From: Streptosporangiaceae bacterium
GTDB lineage: Bacteria; Actinomycetota; Actinomycetes; Streptosporangiales; Streptosporangiaceae
Assembly (NCBI GenBank): GCA_025964695.1
Contig: JAOPYK010000017.1
Coordinates: 1-64,000, forward strand
DNA length: 64,000 nt
Reading direction: 5' to 3'
Part shown: positions 24,863 through 35,991 of the stretch, one piece after another
Layout of the letters: every line of letters starts with the position of its first letter
How positions within the stretch are numbered: position 1 is the stretch's first letter
Notes under the pieces: model-generated
The model's database searches: none
Told to the model about the DNA's origin: nothing
Seen by the model: the letters and a program-made list of their open reading frames with translations, nothing else
Made by a program: the position numbers and the translations under genes

Positions 24863-25729
24863 TCACCACCATGCCTGGTTGGCGGGCTGTACGTCGTCGC
24901 GGAGCACGGTGCCTTCGATCAGGCCGTACGGGCGGTCCGCGGCGAAGAACACCTCATTCGGATTGTCCAGCCCGAAGGGCTCCAGATCGACCACGAAGTG
25001 GTGTTTGTTGGGCATGACGAACCTGATCTCGCAGATCGCGGGGTGCTCCTCCAGCACCCGGCGGCCCATCGTGTGCAGCGTCTGCTGCAGTGACAGGCTA
25101 TGCGTGGCGGCGAACGTCTCGATCAGCAGCCCGCGCACCGCGGCGAAGGACGCGTCCCAGGCGGTGCCGGTGTCGTCGCCGTGTCTCCACTCCGCGGTGA
25201 CGGCGGTGGCAAGGATCCGGTCCCGGGTCTCCCGGAGGGTGGTGTACTCGTCGGTGGCGTAGCCCCAGAACTCCGAGCCGGCCGAGTTCAGCACCACCAG
25301 CTCGCGCAGCCCGGACACCACGTGCGTCCCGGCCCCGGTATGGGTGACCCGAGCCGTCCGGATCTCCTGGCCGCGCCGGACGAAGGAGTGGCCGGTCACC
25401 GGGACGCGGTCCCAGGCGTACTCCTCGACGCTCAGCCGGGCCCGGTGGATCGCCGGCTGCGAGGACACGAAATGCCGGGCCAGCAGCAGCGCGAACTCCT
25501 CTGGGGAGGCGATGCCGTGCTTGCGCGCGAAGGCGTACACGGTGTTCTTCTGCGAGTCGGTCGGCAGCGCGGCCGAGTTGTCCCCGGACAGGTAGACCTC
25601 GTCCAGATCCCCGGCCAGCGTCACGCCGACGTTGAGGTCCCGGATCTCGTGGGTGTCGCCGTCCCGGTTCACTCGTACGACGCGGGTCTCGGCCTTGCCG
25701 TACTGGTTGGCGCCCAGCACTATCGTCAC
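24863..25729 (-). CDS. Urate oxidase (uricase)
   Basis: The 288-residue protein is a cofactor-free uricase converting urate to 5-hydroxyisourate. Signature elements are NQYGKAETRVVRV at the N-terminus, the catalytic LPTDSQKNTVY (Thr-Asp and nearby Lys region), ATDEYTTLRETRDRILAT, SLQQTLHTMG with the active-site Gln, and PNKHHFVVDL near the C-terminus. It lies 20 bp after uraH in the same operon. Confidence 0.96.
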   Translation of the reverse strand: MTIVLGANQYGKAETRVVRVNRDGDTHEIRDLNVGVTLAGDLDEVYLSGDNSAALPTDSQKNTVYAFARKHGIASPEEFALLLARHFVSSQPAIHRARLSVEEYAWDRVPVTGHSFVRRGQEIRTARVTHTGAGTHVVSGLRELVVLNSAGSEFWGYATDEYTTLRETRDRILATAVTAEWRHGDDTGTAWDASFAAVRGLLIETFAATHSLSLQQTLHTMGRRVLEEHPAICEIRFVMPNKHHFVVDLEPFGLDNPNEVFFAADRPYGLIEGTVLRDDVQPANQAWW

Positions 25730-25749
25730 GGTGCTCCCTCGGTAATCAC

Positions 25750-26091
25750 TCAGCTCCCCCTGTAGGTCGTGTAGCCGTACGGGCTGATCAGCAAGGGCAC
25801 ATGGTGGTGCTCGGCCGGGTCCGTGATCATGAAGACGACGCTCACCTCCGGATAGAACGTCTCCGTGCCGGTCGCGGCGAAGTAGGGGCCGGTGCCGAAT
25901 CGCAGCCGGTAGGTGCCCGCCGCCTCGTGCTCCGAATCGGCGGGCAGGAGGCCGCTCAGCCGCCCGTCGCCGTCGGTCTCGGCCTCCACGATCGGCCGCC
26001 AGGTACCGCCGTCGTAGCGGTCCAGCCGGATCGGCACCCCGGCGGCCGGCCGGCCCCTGCCGGTGTCGAGGACATGTGTGCTGAGCGTCAT
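25750..26091 (-). CDS. uraH: 5-hydroxyisourate hydrolase
   Basis: The 113-residue transthyretin-like protein has the N-terminal [16 protein letters not shown] with its active-site histidine, plus arginine in IRLDRY. The diagnostic C-terminal tetrapeptide YRGS distinguishes the hydrolase from transthyretin. It hydrolyses 5-hydroxyisourate to OHCU. Its ATG overlaps the uraD TGA (ATGA). Confidence 0.96.
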   Translation of the reverse strand: MTLSTHVLDTGRGRPAAGVPIRLDRYDGGTWRPIVEAETDGDGRLSGLLPADSEHEAAGTYRLRFGTGPYFAATGTETFYPEVSVVFMITDPAEHHHVPLLISPYGYTTYRGS

Positions 26092-26603
26092 GGGCGTTCC
26101 AACAGCTTGGTCAGACGGAGTTGGACGATCTTGGCGAGCTCGGCGCGGACGGTGCGCCGTTCGGTCTCCTCGTCGTTGCCGAGCCGCACGCGCAGGGCGT
26201 CGAGCATCTCGCCGGCGGAACGGCCACTGGCGCAGATGAGGAAGACCCGGCCGAACCGCTGCTCATAGGCGATGTTCCCCGCGCGCAGCGCCGCCACCAC
26301 TTCCCCGTCCGCGTCGCCGACCCCGGACTGCTCGGCGCGCGACCAGGCCGATTCCCGCCCGGCGCCCTCGGGCCGGTCGCCGATCCTCGGGTGGGCGCTG
26401 AGGGCCTCCTCGACGTCGCGCCACCGCAGGGCCTCGAAAGCCGCGGCCGCCGCGGCGGCCAGCGCGCCGGGGTCGGTGAACGGGCGGGCCGCGGCGACCG
26501 CCTCCGCCCAGGCCGCCGAAGCACAGCACGAGCGCAGCTCGTGCTCCGCCTGGTGGGCGGGCAGGGCGTTGAGCCACTTCAGTGCCCGCGACGTTCCGGT
26601 CAT
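26088..26603 (-). CDS. uraD: OHCU decarboxylase
   Basis: The 171-residue helical protein decarboxylates 2-oxo-4-hydroxy-4-carboxy-5-ureidoimidazoline to S-allantoin. The catalytic histidine is in AHPRIGDR, with the helix signature YEQRFGRVFLICASGRSAGEML at about residues 113-134. It is the first gene of the purine operon and diverges from pucR across a 117-bp intergenic region, the natural place for PucR control. Confidence 0.95.
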   Translation of the reverse strand: MTGTSRALKWLNALPAHQAEHELRSCCASAAWAEAVAAARPFTDPGALAAAAAAAFEALRWRDVEEALSAHPRIGDRPEGAGRESAWSRAEQSGVGDADGEVVAALRAGNIAYEQRFGRVFLICASGRSAGEMLDALRVRLGNDEETERRTVRAELAKIVQLRLTKLLERP

Positions 26604-26707
26604 CGCCCCAGTAGATCAAAGCGGGGGTGACGGTCTCTACCGGCGGACGCCATCAACGGTGAGTACCTCAGACCGGGGCTTTTGGAGATTCCTACAAAGA
26701 GCCTGGT

Positions 26708-26713
26708 TACCCT
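26708..26713 (+). promoter_or_regulatory. -10 element (TACCCT) of leaderless pucR
   Basis: TACCCT at 26708-26713 is followed by 7 nt and the GTG at 26721, with no ribosome site. It supports a transcript beginning at the start codon. Confidence 0.6.
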
Positions 26714-26720
26714 AGAAACC

Positions 26721-28259
26721 GTGCGATTGCGGGAGTTGTTGGACATAAGTGAGCTGCGCCTCATGTTGCGCGGCGGTTCCGAGGCCCTCGACCGGCCGAT
26801 CCGGTGGGTGTACACGACCGAGATCGTGGAGTCCGGCCGCTATCTGAGCGGCAACGAGCTCGTACTGACCGGGCTGATGTGGCACAAGGGGCGGGAGGAT
26901 CCCGACGGCTTCGTGGCCACACTGGTCGACGCCGGGGCGTCCGCGCTGGGCGTCGGCCTGGCGGTGCACGGGCACGTACCGCCCGACATCGTCGCCGCCT
27001 GCCATCGCCAGGGACTCCCGCTGATCGAGATTCCGGCGGACGTGTCCTTCGGTACGGTCAGCGAAGTGGTCACCCGCAGGCTCACCGCGGAGCGCGCGGC
27101 GGGTCTGGCGAGCGTGCTCGGCCGGCATCGGCGGCTGATCTCCTCGGTGGCGGAGGGCGCCGGCCTGGAGTCCGTCTTCACCGTCACCAGGCAGGACCTG
27201 GGCCACGGCTGCTGGGTGCTGTCGCCGACGGGCCGCGTCGTGGTGGGAGCGCGGGCTGGGCCGGAGCTGAGCAGGGGGCAGGCTCGGGCGCTGGCCGCCG
27301 AGTTCCTGGCCGCGGAGCGGCTGCCGCACGTCGTACGGATGGACTCGGGGGCGTTCACCCTGCTGCCGATCAACACCCGGGCGGGGCACCGGATCGCCAG
27401 CTGGTTCCTGGTCAGCGAGGGCGAACTGGTCGAGTGCGCGGAAGAGGTCCGGGAGACCGCCTACGAGCTGGCGGCCCTGGCCGCTCTGGAACGCGCCCGG
27501 ATCGAGGAGGGCCGGCGGGTCGAACGCCGGCTCGTCGCCGAACTGGTCGAGCTCGCCGCCCGCAGCGATCCCGCCGAGGTGACGGCCCGGATGCGGACTT
27601 GCGGCCTGTCGCTCACCGTCCCGTACGTCGCGGTGTCCGCTTCGGTCAGCGACGTCGCGCATCCCGGCGAGGTCGGCTGCGCGGTGTTGGAGGAGATGCT
27701 GGGCGAGGGTGCGGTCGGCGCCCTCGGCGCGGAGGCGGTCGGCCTCGTCCCCGTCCCCCGGGACGGGGTGCCTGCCCTGGTCGCCAGGCTGCGCGAGGCG
27801 GCCGGCAAGCTGGCCTCGGCGCTCACCCGCGAGCGGCTCACCATCGGGGTCAGCGGGACCGCCCAGGGTCCGGGCGGGCTCGGCGGCGTGGTGGACGAGG
27901 CCCGCCATACCCGAAGGCTGGCGGCCCTGCGCCCAGGCCGCGCCGAGGTGGTCACCAGCGACGAGATCCATTCCCACGTGCTGCTGCTGGCCACCGTGCC
28001 CGAGGCGGTGCGGCGGTCGTTCCGGGAGCGGCTGCTGGCGCCGCTGTACGGCTACGACACCGAGCACCACTCCGACCTCGTGCACACCCTCGAGACGTTC
28101 CTCGACTGCTCCGGATCGTGGAATCGCTGCGCGGCGGAGCTGCATGTCCATGTGAACACGCTTCGCTATCGAATCCGGCGAATCGAGGAACTCACCGGGC
28201 GGGATCTTGGCACACTGGAGAATCGCGTCGACCTCTTCCTGGCTCTGCGTGCCACCTGA
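26721..28259 (+). CDS. pucR: PucR-family transcriptional regulator
   Basis: The 512-residue protein has the three PucR regions. An N-terminal purine-catabolism domain (about 5-130; GNELVLTGLMW, LIEIPADVSFG) is followed by a middle GGDEF-like/linker region. The C-terminal HTH_30 domain (about 445-505) contains AAELHVHVNTLRYRIRRIEELTGRDL. PucR proteins control purine utilisation, and the divergent position next to uraD makes the purine operon its probable target. I chose GTG 26721, which has a perfect leaderless arrangement, rather than the ATG at 26682 that would overlap the -10. Confidence 0.92.
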   Translation: MRLRELLDISELRLMLRGGSEALDRPIRWVYTTEIVESGRYLSGNELVLTGLMWHKGREDPDGFVATLVDAGASALGVGLAVHGHVPPDIVAACHRQGLPLIEIPADVSFGTVSEVVTRRLTAERAAGLASVLGRHRRLISSVAEGAGLESVFTVTRQDLGHGCWVLSPTGRVVVGARAGPELSRGQARALAAEFLAAERLPHVVRMDSGAFTLLPINTRAGHRIASWFLVSEGELVECAEEVRETAYELAALAALERARIEEGRRVERRLVAELVELAARSDPAEVTARMRTCGLSLTVPYVAVSASVSDVAHPGEVGCAVLEEMLGEGAVGALGAEAVGLVPVPRDGVPALVARLREAAGKLASALTRERLTIGVSGTAQGPGGLGGVVDEARHTRRLAALRPGRAEVVTSDEIHSHVLLLATVPEAVRRSFRERLLAPLYGYDTEHHSDLVHTLETFLDCSGSWNRCAAELHVHVNTLRYRIRRIEELTGRDLGTLENRVDLFLALRAT

Positions 28260-28276: not shown

Positions 28277-28396
28277 CTAGCAGCAGTGAACCCGCGGACC
28301 GTCGTTGGCCACCAAGGCGTCGGCGGTGGGCGTGATGACGGTGAAGGCGGTGGCGATGAAGGTGATGAGAGCGGCGATCCGCTTCAAGTTAGACAT
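28277..28396 (-). CDS. Small secreted peptide precursor divergent from an XRE-TPR regulator
   Basis: This 39-codon gene starts at ATG 28396, with GGAAGGA 8 nt upstream on the minus strand. The first 27 residues (MSNLKR, then IAALITFIATAFTVITPTADA) form a textbook signal peptide: a basic N-region, a hydrophobic core and an A-D-A cleavage box. The predicted mature product is the 12-residue LVANDGPRVHCC, ending in two adjacent cysteines. The start is 55 bp from the divergent XRE-TPR gene. The arrangement resembles secreted-peptide/receptor pairs of the RRNPP type known in Firmicutes. That role is inference. The gene could instead encode a secreted bacteriocin-like or redox peptide. Confidence 0.7.
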   Translation of the reverse strand: MSNLKRIAALITFIATAFTVITPTADALVANDGPRVHCC

Positions 28397-28451
28397 ATGC
28401 GGTTCCTTCCCATACGGACCTCTGGTAGTTGAATAGTTACAAGGAGTCACG

Positions 28452-29762
28452 GTGAGCGGTCAAGAGAGCCTGGGGCAGCGCATCCGGTCGTTGCGCATCC
28501 GAAAAGGGGTCAGCCAGGCCCAGCTCGCCTTCCCGGAGCTGTCCGACAGCTATATCTCCTTGATCGAAAGCGACAAGCGGGTGCCCGCGCCGAGCGTGAT
28601 CGAAATGCTGGCCGGCAAGCTCGACTGCTCGCCGATCTACCTGCTCAGCGGGGTCAGCGAGGACATCGCCGACGAGCTGCGGGTGACCCTGGACTACGCC
28701 GAGATCGCCCTGCAGAACGGGGCCGCCACCGAAGCCCGCGCCCGTTTCGCCGAGGTACTGGAGAGTTCGGACGCGGCGGCCCTGCCGGAACTCCTGCACG
28801 AGGCCCGCTGGGGACACGCGCTGGCGATGGAGGCGGCCGGCGATCTCGAGGAGGCCATCGTCGAGCTGCGGAAGCTGACCGCGGCCGCCTCGCTCGAGAT
28901 CGAGCGGGAGCACTGGGCCAGAGTGCACGTGGCGCTGAGCCGCTGCCTGCGGGAGCGCGGGGACCTCAGCGAGAGCGTGCAGGTGGCCGAGGACGCGCTG
29001 CGCCGCCTGACCGCCTCCGGCTCGGAGTCCACCGACGCGTCCGTGCACCTAGGCGCCACCCTGCTGGCGGCCTTCATCGAGCGCGGGGACCTGGTCCGCG
29101 CCCGCCAGCTGGCCGGCCAGCTGATCGATCGGGCCGAGCGGATCGGCAGCCCGAAGGCGCGGATGGCCGCCTACTGGGAGGCCGCCTACGTCGCGGAGAT
29201 CCGCGGTGAGTACGACGAGGGACTGGTGCTCGCCGAGCGTGCCCTGCTCCTGCTGGGGGAGGACGACGATCCCCGCAACCTCAGCAGGCTCCGGCTGGCC
29301 TACGCCAGCCTGCTGCTGCGCGCCCGGCCCGGCGAGGCGGAACGCGCCCGTCAGCTGCTGCTGCGGACCCGGGACGACATCGCCGCCAGCTCCGCCGGAG
29401 AGATCGACATGGCCTGGTGCCTCACCGAGCTGGCCCGCGCCGAAACGGCGCTGGGCCGGCCCGGTGAGGCCGTGGAGCTGGCCGGTGAGGCGATCGCGAT
29501 GCTCGGGGAGGCCCCGCGCCGGGCCGCGGCGTGGGCTCTGACCGTGCTGGGCGAGGCCTACGTACGCCTGGACCGGCGCGCCGAGGCGGTCGACGCGCTC
29601 ACCCAGGCGGCGACCCATCTGGAGGCGATGGAGTCGTCCCGCGACGCGGCCCAGGCCTGGTTCGACCTCGCGGAGCTGCTCGGGGAGACCGGCCAGGCCG
29701 GCGGGGTCGAAGGGCAGCGGCTCGCGGCCTACCGCCGGGCGCTGACCTGCGTGGGTCTCTGA
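28452..29762 (+). CDS. XRE-family regulator with TPR domain
   Basis: The 436-residue protein has an N-terminal lambda-repressor-type helix-turn-helix (about residues 7-66; GQRIRSLRIRKGVSQAQLA, YISLIESDKRVPAPSVIEMLA). About nine TPR-like helical pairs follow (about 75-430; for example ARWGHALAMEAAGDLEEAI, AYVAEIRGEYDEGLVLAERAL, LGEAYVRLDRRAEAVDALTQA). This domain order is that of RRNPP peptide receptors, although actinobacterial members are largely uncharacterised. The GTG start has AAGGAG 5 nt upstream. A TAGTT-N3-TAGTT direct repeat lies in the short shared promoter region with the secreted-peptide gene. No peptide has been shown to bind it. Confidence 0.88.
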   Translation: MSGQESLGQRIRSLRIRKGVSQAQLAFPELSDSYISLIESDKRVPAPSVIEMLAGKLDCSPIYLLSGVSEDIADELRVTLDYAEIALQNGAATEARARFAEVLESSDAAALPELLHEARWGHALAMEAAGDLEEAIVELRKLTAAASLEIEREHWARVHVALSRCLRERGDLSESVQVAEDALRRLTASGSESTDASVHLGATLLAAFIERGDLVRARQLAGQLIDRAERIGSPKARMAAYWEAAYVAEIRGEYDEGLVLAERALLLLGEDDDPRNLSRLRLAYASLLLRARPGEAERARQLLLRTRDDIAASSAGEIDMAWCLTELARAETALGRPGEAVELAGEAIAMLGEAPRRAAAWALTVLGEAYVRLDRRAEAVDALTQAATHLEAMESSRDAAQAWFDLAELLGETGQAGGVEGQRLAAYRRALTCVGL

Positions 29763-29869: not shown

Positions 29870-31060
29870 ATGTTCGGACTTGTTCGGCCTTGCCGGCACG
29901 GCATGTGCGCTTCGCTGTTCAAGGAGTGGATGGCGCATCTGTGCGGACTGTGCCTGACGCTGCGGACCGAGCACGGGCAGGCCTCTCGGCTGGTCACCAA
30001 CTATGACGGGCTGCTGGTGTCCGTGCTGGTCGAGGCGCAGAGCCAGGAGCGGTCACCGCACCGCAAGGCCGGTCCGTGCGCACTGCGCGGCATGCGCACC
30101 GCCGAGGTGGTCGACGCCAAGGCCGAGGGCGCCCGGCTGGCCGCGGCGGTCTCGCTGCTGCTGGCGGCGGGAAAGACCCGGGACCATGTGGCGGACCGGG
30201 ACGGCGCCTACGCTCGCCGCCTGGTGGCCTCGACCGCGGGCCGGGTGGCGAACCGGTGGGACGAGGCGGGCGCCCGCACCAGTGTTGCGCTGGGATTCGA
30301 CCCCGCGGTCCTGCGCGACGCCGTCGACCGCCAGACACTGCTCGAGTCGACCTCCGGGCTCGCCCTGCTGGACCTCACCGAGCCGACCGAGACCGCGGTC
30401 GCCGCGGCGTTCGCGCACACCGCCGTCCTCGCGGGCCGGCCGGCCAACCGTGAGCCGCTTGCCGAGGCAGGCCGGTTCTTCGGGCGGCTCGCCCATCTCA
30501 TCGACGCCGTGGAGGACCTCGCGGCGGACCGTGCCACAGGCGCGTACAACCCGCTGCTCGCCACCGGCACCGATCTCGCGGAGGCCCGCCGGCACTGCGA
30601 CGCCGCGGTGCACGGGCTGCGGCTGGCCCTCGCCGACGTGGACTTCGAGGACCGCCGGCTGGTGGCGGCGCTGCTGGAGCGCGAGGTGCACCGGTCGGTG
30701 GACCACGTGTTCGCCGGCTACCCCCAGGGTCCCGGGGCGCCGGGGCCGTACGGTCCGCCGCCGCCCTACCCCGGGCAACATCCGCCTGGGCACCATCCGC
30801 CGCAGTACCCGGGTCTGCCGCCGCAGGGGCCGTTCGGGCCCAAGCGCCCGGGAGCCGGGCTGCTCTGCCTCGCGGGCTCGGCGATCTTCTGTACCTGCGG
30901 GACGTGGCAGCCGCCCTGGAGCCCGCACAACGGCCGGTCGTGCGGAGACCGCTGCTGGTGCAGCCGGAACTGCGACGGCGGTTGCTGTGACTGCTGCGAG
31001 TGTTGCGAGTGCGGCGAGTGCTGTGACGGTGGTTGCTGTGACTGCGGCTGTGACTGCTGA
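29870..31060 (+). CDS. DUF5685 family protein with extreme cysteine-rich tail
   Basis: The 396-residue protein starts MFGLVRPCRHGMCASLFKEWMAHLCGLCLTL, the hallmark of actinobacterial DUF5685 proteins (conserved CRH and HLCGLC). It continues with TNYDGLLVSVLVEAQ. Residues about 60-280 are helical, with a D-rich LIDAVEDLAADRATGAYNPLL motif reminiscent of prenyl-chain-binding helices. A Pro/Gly/His linker (about 283-325) leads to a tail with 21 cysteines in the last 66 residues, many as CC, CDC or CEC. Function is unknown. The conserved N-terminal Cys/His set and the tail both suggest metal or redox chemistry. Confidence 0.8.
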   Translation: MFGLVRPCRHGMCASLFKEWMAHLCGLCLTLRTEHGQASRLVTNYDGLLVSVLVEAQSQERSPHRKAGPCALRGMRTAEVVDAKAEGARLAAAVSLLLAAGKTRDHVADRDGAYARRLVASTAGRVANRWDEAGARTSVALGFDPAVLRDAVDRQTLLESTSGLALLDLTEPTETAVAAAFAHTAVLAGRPANREPLAEAGRFFGRLAHLIDAVEDLAADRATGAYNPLLATGTDLAEARRHCDAAVHGLRLALADVDFEDRRLVAALLEREVHRSVDHVFAGYPQGPGAPGPYGPPPPYPGQHPPGHHPPQYPGLPPQGPFGPKRPGAGLLCLAGSAIFCTCGTWQPPWSPHNGRSCGDRCWCSRNCDGGCCDCCECCECGECCDGGCCDCGCDC

Positions 31061-31133
31061 ACGGTGCCTCACGCGTTACTGGGACGAGAGCAGGTCTTGA
31101 CCAAGCGCACGCTTGGTGCGAGGCTCGGTCGGC

Positions 31134-32978
31134 GTGGAGAGCGGGCAGGACACTTTCGCGCGATTGCTGCTGGCGCGGGCCGATGACGACCACCCCGGGC
31201 TGCTGTTCGAGGACGAGCGCTACAGCTGGGCCGAGGTCGTCGAGGCCGCCAAGACCAGGGCCGCCCTCGCCGTCGGCGGGGCGGCGCGGGGACGGCGGCC
31301 CGCCGGAAGGCCCTTGCACATCGGCGTGCTGCTGGACAACGTCCCCGAATACGTCTTCTGGATCGGGGCCGCCACGCTGGCCGGGGCGACCCTCGTCGGC
31401 ATCAACCCGACCCGGCGCGGCGCCGAGTTGGCCGCCGACATCAGGCACACCGACTGCGATCTAATCGTCACCGACGCCGAGCACGCCGCCCTGCTCAGGG
31501 ACCTCGACACCGGCGTGCCCGCCGACCACCTGTTGCTGACCGGCTCCGACCCGTACCCAGCCCTGCCGGCCACCCCCGCCCGCCTAGATCTCGCCCGCCT
31601 TGATCCGGCCTGCCTGGATCCGGCCTGCGTTGATCCGGCAGGCCCTGATCTTGCCCGCGTTGATCCCGCATCCACTGGTCTTGTCGGCTCTGGTCCCCTT
31701 GCCGACCCCGCGTTCGGTGCCCGGATCATGGCGGGCGATCGGTTGCTGCTGCTGTTCACCTCGGGATCGACCGGGGCGCCCAAGGCGGTGGCTTGCAGCC
31801 AGGGGCGGCTCGCCGCGATCGCCGGCCGGGGCGATCTGTTCGGCATCACCAGAGAGTCGGTGACCTACGTCGCGATGCCGCTCTTCCACGGCAACGCGAT
31901 CATGGCGAATCTGGCCATGGCGGTGGGCGTGGGGGCGACGGTGGTCCTGCGGCGGCGCTTCTCCGCCTCCGGGTTCCTGCCCGACGTCCGCCGCTACGGG
32001 GTGACCTACTTCAACTACGTCGGCCGGGCGCTCGCGTACATCCTCGCCGGCCCCGAACAGGCCGGGGACGCCGTGAACACCCTGCACACCGCGTTCGGCA
32101 CCGAGGCGTCCGCCCAGGACATGGCCCGCTTCGGCGCCCGCTTCGGCTGCCGGGTCATGGATGGCTACGGTTCCAGTGAGGGGGCTATCGCCATCCACAG
32201 GACCCCCGGCTGCCCGCCCGACGCCCTGGGCCTGCCCCACTCCGGCACGGAGGTGGCGATCCTGGCCGCGGACACCGGAGCCGAATGCCCCCGGGCCCGG
32301 TTCGACGAGGCCGGCGGGCTGCTCAACCCCGGGGAGGCGGTCGGTGAGATCGTCGGCCTCAACGTGGTGACCGCGTTCGAGGGCTACTACAACAACCTCG
32401 AAGCCGAGGCCCAGCGGATCCGGCCCCGGTTCCCGGCGGCCTCCGGAGCGCAGGCTTCGGGGCCGGGGGCCGACCGGGTCTACTGGAGCGGCGATCTGGG
32501 GTACCGCGACGAGTCCGGCTACTTCTACTTCGCCGGGCGCGACAGTGACTGGCTCCGGGTGGACAGTGAGAACTTCGCGGCCGCCCCGGTGGAGCGGATC
32601 CTGTCCCGCTGGACGCCGGTCGTCATGTGCGCGGTGTACCCCGTGCCTGATCCCCGTACGGGTGACCAGGTGATGGCGGCCCTGGAGATCGGCGGCCAGT
32701 TCGACCCCGGCGCCTTCGCGGAGTTCCTCGGGGCCCAGGCGGATCTCGGCACGAAGTGGGCGCCCCGGTTCGTGCGCGTGATCGCCGCCATGCCGCTGAC
32801 TTCGACGAACAAGGTCGACAAACGCCCCCTGCGGGCGGAGCGCTGGGAGTGCGCCGACCAGGTGTGGTGGCGTCCCGGCCGCGAGCCGGCCTACCGGCCG
32901 CTCACCCCGGGCCTGGTCGCCGGGCTCCGTGCGGAGTTCGCCGCGCACGGCCGTGAGCATGTGCTGTCCGGAGTGTGA
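31134..32978 (+). CDS. Fatty-acid/acyl-CoA ligase of the FadD17-like group
   Basis: The 614-residue adenylate-forming enzyme has the AMP-binding P-loop LLFTSGSTGAPKAV (about 204-217), YVAMPLFHGNAIMANLAMA, DGYGSSEGAI, YWSGDLGYRDESGYFYFAGR and the C-terminal catalytic lysine region TSTNKVDKRPLR. It resembles mycobacterial FadD17 ligases linked to steroid side-chain metabolism; the substrate here is unknown. Between the N-terminal part and the P-loop there is a tandem pentapeptide expansion (residues about 150-189). The start is uncertain: TTG 31113, GTG 31116 and GTG 31134 are all possible and none has a strong ribosome site. Confidence 0.87.
   Translation: MESGQDTFARLLLARADDDHPGLLFEDERYSWAEVVEAAKTRAALAVGGAARGRRPAGRPLHIGVLLDNVPEYVFWIGAATLAGATLVGINPTRRGAELAADIRHTDCDLIVTDAEHAALLRDLDTGVPADHLLLTGSDPYPALPATPARLDLARLDPACLDPACVDPAGPDLARVDPASTGLVGSGPLADPAFGARIMAGDRLLLLFTSGSTGAPKAVACSQGRLAAIAGRGDLFGITRESVTYVAMPLFHGNAIMANLAMAVGVGATVVLRRRFSASGFLPDVRRYGVTYFNYVGRALAYILAGPEQAGDAVNTLHTAFGTEASAQDMARFGARFGCRVMDGYGSSEGAIAIHRTPGCPPDALGLPHSGTEVAILAADTGAECPRARFDEAGGLLNPGEAVGEIVGLNVVTAFEGYYNNLEAEAQRIRPRFPAASGAQASGPGADRVYWSGDLGYRDESGYFYFAGRDSDWLRVDSENFAAAPVERILSRWTPVVMCAVYPVPDPRTGDQVMAALEIGGQFDPGAFAEFLGAQADLGTKWAPRFVRVIAAMPLTSTNKVDKRPLRAERWECADQVWWRPGREPAYRPLTPGLVAGLRAEFAAHGREHVLSGV
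31581..31700 (+). repeat. 15-bp repeat array inside the FadD17-like gene
   Basis: About eight consecutive 15-bp units, most like YGC-CTT-GAT-CCG-GCC, encode RLDLA-RLDPA-CLDPA-CVDPA-GPDLA-RVDPA and two more divergent units. The array is in frame and sits in a loop before the AMP-binding motif. Confidence 0.85.
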
Positions 32979-33336: not shown

Positions 33337-33978
33337 ATGACTATGACTCCGCGTAACCACATGGGCCGCCTGGCACTGATCGCCGCGATCGTCGTCGCGT
33401 TCGGCGCGCTCTTCACCACCCCGGCCTCCGCCCATACCAAGCTGCTCAGCAGCACGCCCGCGAGGGACGCCAAGGTCACCGCACCGACCGAGGTGAGGCT
33501 GGTGTTCAGCGAGCACGTCACCCGGGCCCAGGTGCAGGTCCGCGACGCCAAGGGCGGCACGCACCAGACCGGTGCCGCGCAGGTACAGGGTGCGACGGTG
33601 ACCCAGCAGGTGGCCGCGGGGCTGCCAGCCGGCGCCTACACCGTCGACTACCGTGTCGTTTCCGCCGACGGCCACCCGGTCGAGGAGTCCCTGCCGTTCT
33701 CGATCACCGGCGCGGCCGCGACCGGGCCGGACGCTGGCGTCCAGGGGCCGGACGGCCAGGGCACGGCGGCGGGCGGCGCGGCCGTCGAGCGCAACACGGG
33801 CACCGGCGCCCCCGGATCCAACCAGGGCGACGGTGAGAACGGCCGGCAGCTGGCCTCCTCCGGGGGCTCCGCCAAGTGGTTCCTGGTGGGTGCAGGGCTG
33901 CTCGCCGGCATCGGGATCGGGCTGGGCGTCGTCCTGCTCCGCAAGAAGAAGAGCGCCGCTCTGGCCGATGGAGAATAG
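33337..33978 (+). CDS. CopC-domain copper-binding protein, membrane-anchored
   Basis: The 213-residue protein has a signal peptide (LALIAAIVVAFGALFTTPASA) that would leave His as the second residue of AHTKLLSSTPARDAKV. That is the N-terminal copper-binding histidine typical of CopC/YobA proteins. The CopC beta-barrel continues to DYRVVSADGHPVEESLPFSI, with the conserved D-G-H. A disordered Gly/Ala linker, one transmembrane helix (WFLVGAGLLAGIGIGLGVVLL) and a KKK tail anchor it outside the membrane. ATGs at 33337 and 33343 are both possible. It lies 3 bp before the CopD-CtaG gene, so copper handed to that protein is likely. Confidence 0.9.
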   Translation: MTMTPRNHMGRLALIAAIVVAFGALFTTPASAHTKLLSSTPARDAKVTAPTEVRLVFSEHVTRAQVQVRDAKGGTHQTGAAQVQGATVTQQVAAGLPAGAYTVDYRVVSADGHPVEESLPFSITGAAATGPDAGVQGPDGQGTAAGGAAVERNTGTGAPGSNQGDGENGRQLASSGGSAKWFLVGAGLLAGIGIGLGVVLLRKKKSAALADGE

Positions 33979-33981
33979 ACC

Positions 33982-35991
33982 GTGACCCGACCTGGCGCCG
34001 CCGCCCACCGGCCCGCGGCGATCGCGGCAGCGGTCGCCGCGGTCGTGGGGCTCACCGCACTTGTGATCGCGGCGGTGGCCGGTGGAGCGGTAACGGAGAA
34101 GGTCATTCCCGGACTGGGCGACGCGGGCACCCTCACCCGGTGGGGCCTGCCGGTGGCCCGGCTCGCGCTGGACACGGGCGCGGCGCTCACCGTGGGCGCG
34201 CTGCTCATGGCGTCCGTGCTGATCCCGTCGGACAAGGGTGGTCTCGATCCGGTCGCCGTCCGCTATGTGCGGGCGGCGTCGTGGCTGGCGGCCGGTTGGG
34301 CCACCGCCGCCGCGATAACCCTGATCCTCACCGTCTCCGACATCCTCGGCGAGCCGGTCGGGCAGGTCGTCGGCGGCAGCGAGCTGAGCAGCTACGTCGG
34401 TCAGCTGCCCCAGGGCACCGCGCTGATGCTCGTGGTCCTGATCTCGGTGGTGATCGCTCTGCTGACCAGGACCACCGCCACCCCAGGTGCGGCACTGGCC
34501 CTGCTGGTGCTGGCCGTCATCGCGCTACTGCCACCCCCGCTCACCGGGCACTCGGCCGCCTCGCCCAACCATTCGGTGGCGGTCGTGGGCCTCGCCCTGC
34601 ACCTGGCGGCGGTCGTGCCGTGGATCGGCGGGCTGGCCGTGCTGGGCTGGCATGCCCTGACCGGTGGCGAGCGACTCGGCATCGCCGCTGAGCGGTTCAG
34701 CCGGCTGGCGCTGTGGTGCTACATCGCGGTCGGGATCAGCGGGTTCGCCAACGCGGTCACTCGGCTGCCCGACCCCACCGAGCTGATCACCAGCGACTAC
34801 GGCCGGCTCATCCTGGTCAAGACCGCCGCGTTCGCCTTCCTCGGCTGGCTGGGCTGGATGCACCGCACCCGTACGCTTCCGGCGGTGGCCGCGCGCCGGC
34901 CGCGCGCCTTCGCCCGGCTGGCCTCCGTCGAGGCGGCGGTGATGGCGGGCACGATGGGCGTCGCCGTGGCGCTGGCCCGCACCGCGCCTCCCGTGACCGG
35001 CTCGCCGGAGAGCGCGGTGAAGGGCCTGCTGGGCTATGACCTGCCACCGGCGATCACGGTCGGCCGGCTGCTGACCCTGTGGCGTTTCGACCTGTTCTTC
35101 GTGGTGCTGGTGCTCGTCCTGGGCGGGGCCTACCTGGCCGGGGTGCTGCGGCTGCGCCGCCGCGGGGACTCCTGGTCGTACGGCCGCGTCGCCGCCTGGT
35201 TCATCGGGCTGCTCACCATCGTGATCGTGACGATGAGCGGTGTTGCGACCTACTCGCCGGTCCTGTTCAGCGTGCACATGGCCCAGCACATGGTGCTGGC
35301 GATGCTCACCCCGATCTTCCTGGTGCTCGGAGCCCCGGTGACGCTGGCGCTGCGGGCGCTCAAGCCCGCTGCGATCAAGGGAGACCGGGGACCGCGCGAG
35401 TGGCTGATGGTCTTCCTGCACAGCCGGGTCGTCAAAGTGCTCGGCCATCCCATCGTGGCGACGGTCATCTTCGTGGCGAGCACGTACGTGCTGTACTTCA
35501 GCCCGCTGTTCGAGATGGCGATGCGCGCCCATCTCGGGCACATCGCGATGTTGACGCATTTCCTGCTGGCAGGCGGGCTGTTCTACTGGGTGCTCATCGG
35601 GGTCGATCCCGCCCCGCACAAGGTCCCCTACATCGGGAAGCTGCTGGTGCTGTTCGTCACCATGCCCTTCCACGCGTTCTTCGGCGTCGCGCTGATGAAC
35701 ATGAACGATCTCGCGAACAACTGGTACACCTCCCTGCACCGGCCCTGGGGCGCGTCTCTCGCCTCCGATCTGCACACCGGCGGCTCCATCGCCTGGGCCT
35801 TCGGCGAGATTCCCACCTTCATCGTGCTGCTGGCCATCGTGTTCCAGTGGTTCATGGACGAGCAGCGGCTGTCGGTCCGCCTCGACCGCAAGGCCGACCG
35901 GGCCGTCGCCAACAAGGAGGATGACGAGCTGTCGGACTACAACGCCTACCTCTCCTCGCTGGACCGACGCTCTCAGCGGGCCGGCGAATAG
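33982..35991 (+). CDS. Fused CopD copper transporter / CtaG cytochrome oxidase assembly factor
   Basis: The 669-residue polytopic protein has two modules. Residues about 1-330 correspond to CopD (LLTR/LLALL-type helices, GHSAASPNHSVAVVGLALHLAAVVPWIGGLAVL with conserved histidines, then RFSRLALWCYIAVGISGFANA). Residues about 350-640 are a caa3-type CtaG domain (FSVHMAQHMVLAMLTPIFLVLGAPVTLALRAL, LTHFLLAGGLFYWVLIGVDPAP, MPFHAFFGVALM). This fusion is common in actinobacteria and links copper import to cytochrome oxidase CuB assembly. The GTG start is immediately downstream of the CopC gene. Confidence 0.93.
   Translation: MTRPGAAAHRPAAIAAAVAAVVGLTALVIAAVAGGAVTEKVIPGLGDAGTLTRWGLPVARLALDTGAALTVGALLMASVLIPSDKGGLDPVAVRYVRAASWLAAGWATAAAITLILTVSDILGEPVGQVVGGSELSSYVGQLPQGTALMLVVLISVVIALLTRTTATPGAALALLVLAVIALLPPPLTGHSAASPNHSVAVVGLALHLAAVVPWIGGLAVLGWHALTGGERLGIAAERFSRLALWCYIAVGISGFANAVTRLPDPTELITSDYGRLILVKTAAFAFLGWLGWMHRTRTLPAVAARRPRAFARLASVEAAVMAGTMGVAVALARTAPPVTGSPESAVKGLLGYDLPPAITVGRLLTLWRFDLFFVVLVLVLGGAYLAGVLRLRRRGDSWSYGRVAAWFIGLLTIVIVTMSGVATYSPVLFSVHMAQHMVLAMLTPIFLVLGAPVTLALRALKPAAIKGDRGPREWLMVFLHSRVVKVLGHPIVATVIFVASTYVLYFSPLFEMAMRAHLGHIAMLTHFLLAGGLFYWVLIGVDPAPHKVPYIGKLLVLFVTMPFHAFFGVALMNMNDLANNWYTSLHRPWGASLASDLHTGGSIAWAFGEIPTFIVLLAIVFQWFMDEQRLSVRLDRKADRAVANKEDDELSDYNAYLSSLDRRSQRAGE

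Follow-up and report, generated by a model that had tools for sequence, protein, structure and literature searches.

An XRE-HTH/TPR regulator gene and a short divergent gene for a putative secreted peptide ending in Cys-Cys probably act together as a one-component module for peptide signalling, in the manner of the RRNPP systems PlcR-PapR and NprR-NprX of Bacillota; we put the probability of this reading at about 0.72. On sequence grounds, we read the pair as an RRNPP-like peptide/receptor module with a Cys-Cys end that seems to have spread through Actinomycetota. The pair was found in a stretch of 64,000 nucleotides, which we call the window (contig 16 of the source genome, which is 7.66 Mb in size).

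The regulator and its divergent peptide gene

The features of the pair, with positions in the window, are as follows.

28277..28396, minus strand: 39-codon pro-peptide gene, MSNLKRIAALITFIATAFTVITPTADALVANDGPRVHCC plus stop, with ATG at 28396 (ORF list, homologues)
28316..28396, minus strand: predicted signal peptide, residues 1-27, with an A-D-A end (rule of thumb; permissive A-x-A rule)
28280..28315, minus strand: predicted mature peptide LVANDGPRVHCC (sequence; the GPRVHCC end is identical in L002, L003, L004 and L009)
28280..28285, minus strand: Cys-Cys codons TGC TGC ahead of the stop, the common family end (sequence and homologues)
28403..28411, minus strand: ribosome-binding site of the peptide gene, GGGAAGGAA, of GGAAGG type (sequence; similar placement in relatives)
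28397..28451, no strand: 55-bp intergenic region with both ribosome sites (sequence)
28441..28446, plus strand: ribosome-binding site of the regulator gene, AAGGAG (sequence)
28452..29762, plus strand: XRE-HTH/TPR regulator, candidate receptor, 436 amino acids, with a GTG start at 28452
28482..28643, plus strand: HTH_3 domain, regulator residues 11-64 (Pfam)
28659..29750, plus strand: nine TPR-like helix pairs, regulator residues 70-433, candidate peptide groove (Pfam and AlphaFold2 model, manual count)

The regulator matches the Pfam models HTH_3, TPR_MalT (47 bits) and TPR_12 (44.5 bits), each above its cut-off. It falls below the cut-off of every NCBIfam model listed; NsdA_fam_reg (NF053720), for example, scores 30.8 bits against a curated cut-off of 75 bits. 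An AlphaFold2 model made with 24 homologues as input (mean pLDDT 89.3, pTM 0.75) has the HTH helices followed by helices that we counted as nine TPR pairs. The first-pass annotation had described an HTH plus roughly nine TPR repeats, and both the Pfam matches and the helix count bear this out. Its account of a 39-codon divergent frame, 55 bp away and with its own ribosome site, is likewise confirmed by the coordinates and by the GGAAGG-type site.

The pro-peptide has a basic start, a hydrophobic core and an A-x-A box, and is predicted to be secreted on the basis of hydropathy and a rule so permissive that 100 of 100 peptides pass it. The A-D-A box and the 12-residue mature peptide that had been proposed agree with the sequence, with cleavage predicted by rule of thumb. 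An alternative in-frame GTG at 28450 would extend the peptide to 57 amino acids, but we prefer the 39-residue form because a ribosome site precedes its ATG. When the whole 64 kb was scanned, this was the sole hydrophobic ORF of 28-80 codons with a -CC end. Neither the window peptide nor any of six others matches a Pfam or NCBIfam family above cut-off, a few matches at E 0.02-0.4 lying below it, and two peptides compared with PHROGs matched no family.

Ribosome sites for both directions lie inside the gap in the window and in its relatives, so the two divergent promoters would have to overlap near 28397..28451, and an operator shared by both genes is likely to lie within these 55 bp. The dyad AAATC-N4-GATTT, or a close variant of it, is found between peptide and regulator in L105, L110, L117 and L118 and is a possible operator.

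Peptides beside the closest relatives of the regulator

In a collection of species genomes, 8 of 17 homologous loci have a divergent ORF of 37-46 amino acids with an HCC end, located about 34-65 bp from the regulator match. With the window included, five of these peptides end in GPRVHCC and four in IHCC or FHCC. Loci L004, L009 and L016, from Actinocorallia or Actinoallomurus strains, are among those with the pair. No peptide is present in the other nine loci, which are the Thermomonospora loci, the Actinomadura loci except L015, and Actinoallomurus L018, and the sequence scanned around the 17 loci holds no further -CC secreted ORF.

A profile of nine peptides, from which the regulator was excluded, was run over 250 family genomes, with part of the candidates in each genome being scored. 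It gives at least 11 matches at E 1e-8 or better, followed by one at 1.3e-5, and all 11 strong matches adjoin the regulator, both with and without pucR in the 1.5-kb flanks. Among the best 30 regulator rows in the family, several of which are the same loci as in the 17-locus set, 10, the window counted, come with a divergent peptide ending in -CC. The other 20 are without one, and most of them retain DUF5685 or pucR as a neighbour of the regulator.

The regulator does not require the peptide, which is missing in many close loci, and we count this against the module. A tree of 79 regulators groups the seven rows from Actinomadura/Thermomonospora that have no peptide into a single clade (99/93) next to that of the window (join 93/65), and L018 is a separate peptide-less case. 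The window pair is thus adjacent to a peptide-less lineage, and this accounts for the presence of the peptide in only some of its closest relatives. That the clade nearest the window mostly has no peptide is most simply explained by loss.

Family-wide survey

At E 1e-60, the regulator profile finds a homologue in 165 of 250 family genomes. Upstream regions were collected for 80 further matches listed below the best 30, these being part of a longer list, and 69 of the 80 contain a divergent hydrophobic ORF of 28-75 codons, with a -CC end in 57. Combining the best 30 with the next 80 listed, a divergent signal-peptide ORF with a -CC end is present in 67 of 110 regions. Nine of the 80 have WNxP-like or other secreted ends instead (L122, L132, L134, L138, L145, L151, L152, L154 and L155), and from their sequences these ORFs resemble genuine pro-peptides. 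The 69 ORFs include three (L081, L083 and L084) that lack this resemblance, and 14 of the 80 regions have no likely pro-peptide.

Dinucleotide shuffles of the 80 regions yield any secreted ORF in 159 of 2000 cases and a -CC end in 0 of 2000, and the codirectional strand, used as a control, has a -CC end in 1 of 80. The peptide starts about 48-74 bp from the regulator match in these regions, distances measured to where the profile match begins, which may be off by a few codons. In 35 loci, 24 of the -CC secreted ORFs lie within about 1 kb of the regulator and 1 lies elsewhere in 263 kb.

Several genomes contain more than one regulator. G114, G090 and G175 each have two copies, of which L094, L101 and L100 are without a peptide and L088, L092 and L093 have a -CC peptide. 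At L163, a second XRE-TPR paralogue lies in tandem behind the first, at +1395..+2685 from the regulator start. The paralogues L020, L223, L224 and L226 have no -CC peptide in the scanned DNA, which covers about 560 bp for the last three.

Linkage in other families, on plasmids and across the phylum

Within the class, the regulator is found in 52 of 296 genomes at E 1e-40, its own family included, and so is not universal. A third set of upstream regions, from other families, has a divergent -CC peptide in 24 of 37 loci, or 24 of 34 once three second copies from the window's own family are removed. In family f19, the divergent -CC peptide is present in 15 of 16 loci, and L192 shows none with 217 bp upstream. 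Both L192 and L211 are located at a contig end or close to one, and L193 is the same locus as L233, under which it is counted in the two-sided scan.

That scan covered both sides of the regulator in 20 loci of eight other families, which overlap the set containing the f19 loci. A -CC secreted ORF lies next to the regulator in 18 of the 20: 11 are divergent upstream, six are convergent downstream (L233, L236, L241, L242, L243 and L244) and one is codirectional upstream (L234). At L245, scanning of both flanks found no peptide, though its paralogue L246 has one. The L249 peptide ends in QWCCDAIPA.

The regulator also occurs in 16 plasmid records, four of which were inspected. A Streptomyces goshikiensis plasmid has an annotated 71-residue hypothetical protein with a -CC end directly downstream of the regulator and in the same direction, and a Nonomuraea gerenzanensis record has a divergent -CC ORF upstream of it. 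The remaining two of the four inspected records, L282 and L283, have no -CC peptide. Peptide and regulator are linked in nine families belonging to the class, where the genes are arranged in three ways; the Streptomyces plasmid shows a fourth. The strongest indication of joint function is that the partner persists when the gene arrangement differs.

The first-pass annotation had proposed a scan for short secreted frames beside homologous regulators and had looked to the HCC end for conservation. The first idea is supported by 8 of the 17 closest loci, by 67 of 110 family regions (-CC) and by 18 of 20 loci in other families. The second holds in part: -CC is widely kept, but the histidine is limited to near relatives (five GPRVHCC, four [IF]HCC). 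Judging from the aligned ends, the common end of the peptide family is -CC, and 'HCC' is too narrow.

A wider profile matches in 36 of 346 phylum genomes at E 1e-30. We scanned 29 more distant loci, most of them from other classes and some of them near relatives of each other, and found a divergent short secreted ORF in 20. An ORF of 28-40 amino acids ending in [WFY]P plus up to five residues, or in CC plus up to two, is present in 16 of the 29, a descriptive count since the [WFY]P motif was defined after the peptides had been viewed. Examples of these ends are ..GYPWPK, ..NWPHH and ..APWPHCC. Shuffles of the distant regions give any secreted ORF in 265 of 2900 cases and one with a [WFY]P or CC end in 11 of 2900. 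Among the loci scanned, the Streptomyces-like rows (f18) show no [WFY]P or -CC end.

A fixed end behind a variable tail

We compared 90 -CC peptides, a set selected for that end. Entropy is 3.4-4.0 bits at positions -3 to -11, the last-12 tails are distinct in 89 of the 90, and position -3 is W, Y, H, M, F or L in 57. The Cys codons and the stop codons vary, which suggests that it is the protein end that is conserved. A fixed end behind a fast-changing tail is, we infer, the expected look of a specificity-bearing pheromone. In the regulator tree, the six rows of the WNxP clade form one clade (100/100) within the -CC group.

Pooled dN/dS is 0.47 for the signal part and 0.63 for the last 13 codons (21 chosen pairs, some of which share sequences), and changes by codon position are 89/48/133 and 74/47/80, respectively. 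Comparing the window with L002 gives pN 0.34 and pS 0.33 in the signal part, and pN 0.15 and pS 0.46 in the tail. In some pairs (L113/L123, L120/L123 and L124/L127), pN exceeds pS in the tail. Equal rates of synonymous and nonsynonymous change had been named beforehand as a result that would count against the peptide; the pooled ratios are below 1 and indicate purifying selection in the pooled data, but the pairs scatter, and the signal part of the window/L002 pair does have pN equal to pS (0.34/0.33).

Comparison with known receptor systems

The regulator profile matches the PlcR PDB sequence at E 2.8e-10 and 4.8e-15, over the HTH and the first TPRs, and NprR at E 1.5e-7; unrelated HTH and TPR proteins also match in profile and structure searches. 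In a Foldseek search with the model, PlcR-PapR complexes appear at ranks 13 and 25. VIA-align lists NprR and Rap-peptide complexes (5dbk, 4gpk, 4gyo, 8rte), with PlcR absent among the 50 matches listed. Eukaryotic or designed TPR proteins are mostly on top in both fold searches and rank as high as the RRNPP proteins or higher, so the fold fits RRNPP without proving membership. The analogy to RRNPP receptors that was drawn at the outset holds for the architecture and for the profile match to PlcR.

A passage in PMC10075063 gives five features of RRNPP systems: a small pro-peptide of 10-100 amino acids, Sec secretion (by SignalP), a receptor of 250-500 amino acids, TPRs, and adjacent genes. Four of these are found here, with a peptide of 39 amino acids (28-75 in the relatives counted), a receptor of 436, a TPR HMM match and genes 55 bp apart. 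For the fifth, Sec secretion, hydropathy and a permissive rule point to a start that resembles a signal peptide. The genome contains 12 SBP_bac_5 (oligopeptide-binding protein) genes, which are candidates for import and show that such a route is possible, no more.

Like PlcR-PapR of the Bacillus cereus group, the pair combines an N-terminal XRE HTH and a TPR receptor of 250-500 amino acids with a neighbouring small, putatively secreted pro-peptide whose C-terminal part would be the signal. It differs in belonging to Actinomycetota, in its nine TPR pairs, in a peptide gene that is mostly divergent upstream and in the C-terminal Cys-Cys; the receptor is also longer, with 436 residues compared to 293 in the PlcR chain. 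With NprR-NprX and Rap-Phr it shares the size class of the pro-peptide and a TPR superhelix of the kind that binds imported short peptides, here as a candidate function. The peptide end and the phylum differ, and no phosphatase role is known here.

Rgg/SHP and ComRS systems have divergent arrangements and very short pro-peptides, and the aromatic C-terminal motifs of XIP resemble the [WFY]P ends. Unlike in Rgg/SHP, the peptides here have a signal-peptide-like start and, in most families, longer tails. SHPs exit via PptAB and are missed by SignalP, as one passage states (PMC10075063). The NsdA-family and XRE-DUF397 proteins of Streptomyces are similar in being XRE and/or TPR regulators of actinobacteria. 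To our knowledge, DUF397 partners are not secreted peptides.

Gamma-butyrolactone systems consist of a small molecule and a TetR-like receptor. They resemble the present pair in having a cytoplasmic one-component receptor and differ from it in that the signal here would be a gene-encoded peptide. Part of a review describes gamma-butyrolactone signalling in actinobacteria as a cytoplasmic one-component receptor for a diffusible signal, and adds that, apart from butyrolactones, actinobacterial signals include peptides that are cyclic or modified (PMC4748050). According to PMC10075063, RRNPP systems have been described in Firmicutes and on the mobile elements of these bacteria, and Actinomycetota typically signal with small molecules. 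We found no actinobacterial peptide/XRE-TPR pair described in the full-text collection searched, a weak absence as this collection holds no preprints and few subscription journals.

Alternative explanations

The explanation that competes best with signalling, unlikely as we judge it, is that the -CC peptide is a secreted effector that is metal (copper) binding, redox-active or antimicrobial, and that the TPR protein responds to some other cue. A Cys-Cys or His-Cys-Cys end could plausibly serve as a Cu(I) or thiol ligand, and in 18 of 20 family loci the regulator has copC and/or copD-ctaG on its downstream side. In the window, the regulator is followed by DUF5685, whose tail is Cys-rich, by an AMP-binding enzyme gene and then by two genes that lie outside the minimal pair and belong to the copper neighbourhood kept in the family.

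33337..33978, plus strand: CopC, context
33982..35991, plus strand: CopD-CtaG fusion, context

This neighbourhood was not seen in other families: no copC/copD is present in the flanks scanned (at most 5 kb per side, shorter in some) for 20 of 20 of their loci, of which 18 have the -CC peptide, and for this reason copper is not taken as the core of the system. A copper role as core function was accordingly rejected (18/20 in the family but 0/20 in the others) and is retained as a rival only. Also against an effector, one clade swapped CC for WNxP-like ends yet kept a secreted peptide, and most peptides of the distant group have no Cys, ending in WPHH, YPWPK and similar. The tail changes faster than the signal part in the pooled comparison, which would suit a specificity signal better than a metal ligand.

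Two observations concern the neighbouring genes themselves. The DUF5685 protein (29870-31060, plus strand) has a C-terminal Cys-Cys/Asp/Gly repeat tail (..CDGGCCDCCECCECGECC..) and looks metal binding. The AMP-binding (acyl-CoA-synthetase-like) gene lies between the regulator and copC in some lineages only (L171; window 31113-32978).

Far less probable is that the peptide is a small hydrophobic toxin and the XRE protein its repressor or antitoxin. An XRE regulator does adjoin a short hydrophobic ORF here, and XRE-DUF397 pairs of Streptomyces are proposed as toxin-antitoxin systems in two papers (PMC10364602, PMC6262351). However, the start of the peptide resembles a signal peptide and its tail is variable. 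In separate lineages, close homologues of the regulator have no peptide next to them, and in several families it recurs beside diverged regulators.

We give even less credence to a cis-acting leader ORF, that is, a cysteine-sensing attenuator with no working peptide. Cys-responsive leader ORFs have Cys codons in a short ORF, as does this one with its two terminal Cys codons. The RNA structure of the window's peptide transcript region is no more than chance (z 0.30) and there is no Rfam match, and on these grounds a Cys attenuator or RNA element was rejected. Moreover, the signal-peptide protein sequence is conserved, and the same kind of peptide is convergent downstream in other families, where it cannot act as a leader of the regulator gene. 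A chance ORF is hardly credible, since hydrophobic short ORFs do arise in shuffled regions (159/2000) but -CC ends do not (0/2000, against 57/80 real regions), and the partner is kept despite rearrangement.

Proposed mechanism

In the peptide signalling module that we favour, the pro-peptide would leave the cell by the Sec route, and cleavage behind the signal would release a peptide of about 12 residues. After re-import through an oligopeptide permease, this mature peptide would occupy the TPR groove, and the peptide-bound regulator would alter control of the divergent promoter region, its own gene and unlinked targets. The variable residues ahead of CC may give specificity, with CC as a shared recognition or chemical handle through its thiols, a vicinal disulfide or a metal. 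We considered a regulator cysteine as the partner of CC and rejected the idea, because no cysteine column of the regulator tracks the presence of CC. C165 is common to both large families and is also retained where CC or the peptide is lost.

A broader scenario, which we regard as doubtful, is that Actinomycetota have their own old pheromone family read by HTH-TPR receptors. Its early form would have had a [WFY]-P core, with Cys-Cys added in the class Actinomycetes. Dithiol, cyclic vicinal disulfide and Cu(I)-bound forms might then be read differently, reporting density plus redox or copper state, and copC/copD-ctaG would be a remnant or an output.

If the recurrent peptide/TPR-receptor pair is what it appears to be, it would represent another signalling channel in an antibiotic-making phylum and could serve to wake silent gene clusters. 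It also allows ideas on how RRNPP-type signalling arose to be tested outside Bacillota, and its Cys-Cys end raises an immediate chemical question: thiol, disulfide or metal. Among the loci compared, neighbours differ between families and there is no conserved target gene, which counts against the module. In the window, positions 24863-28259 hold a purine-catabolism block of uricase, HIUase/transthyretin-like, OHCU decarboxylase and PucR genes.
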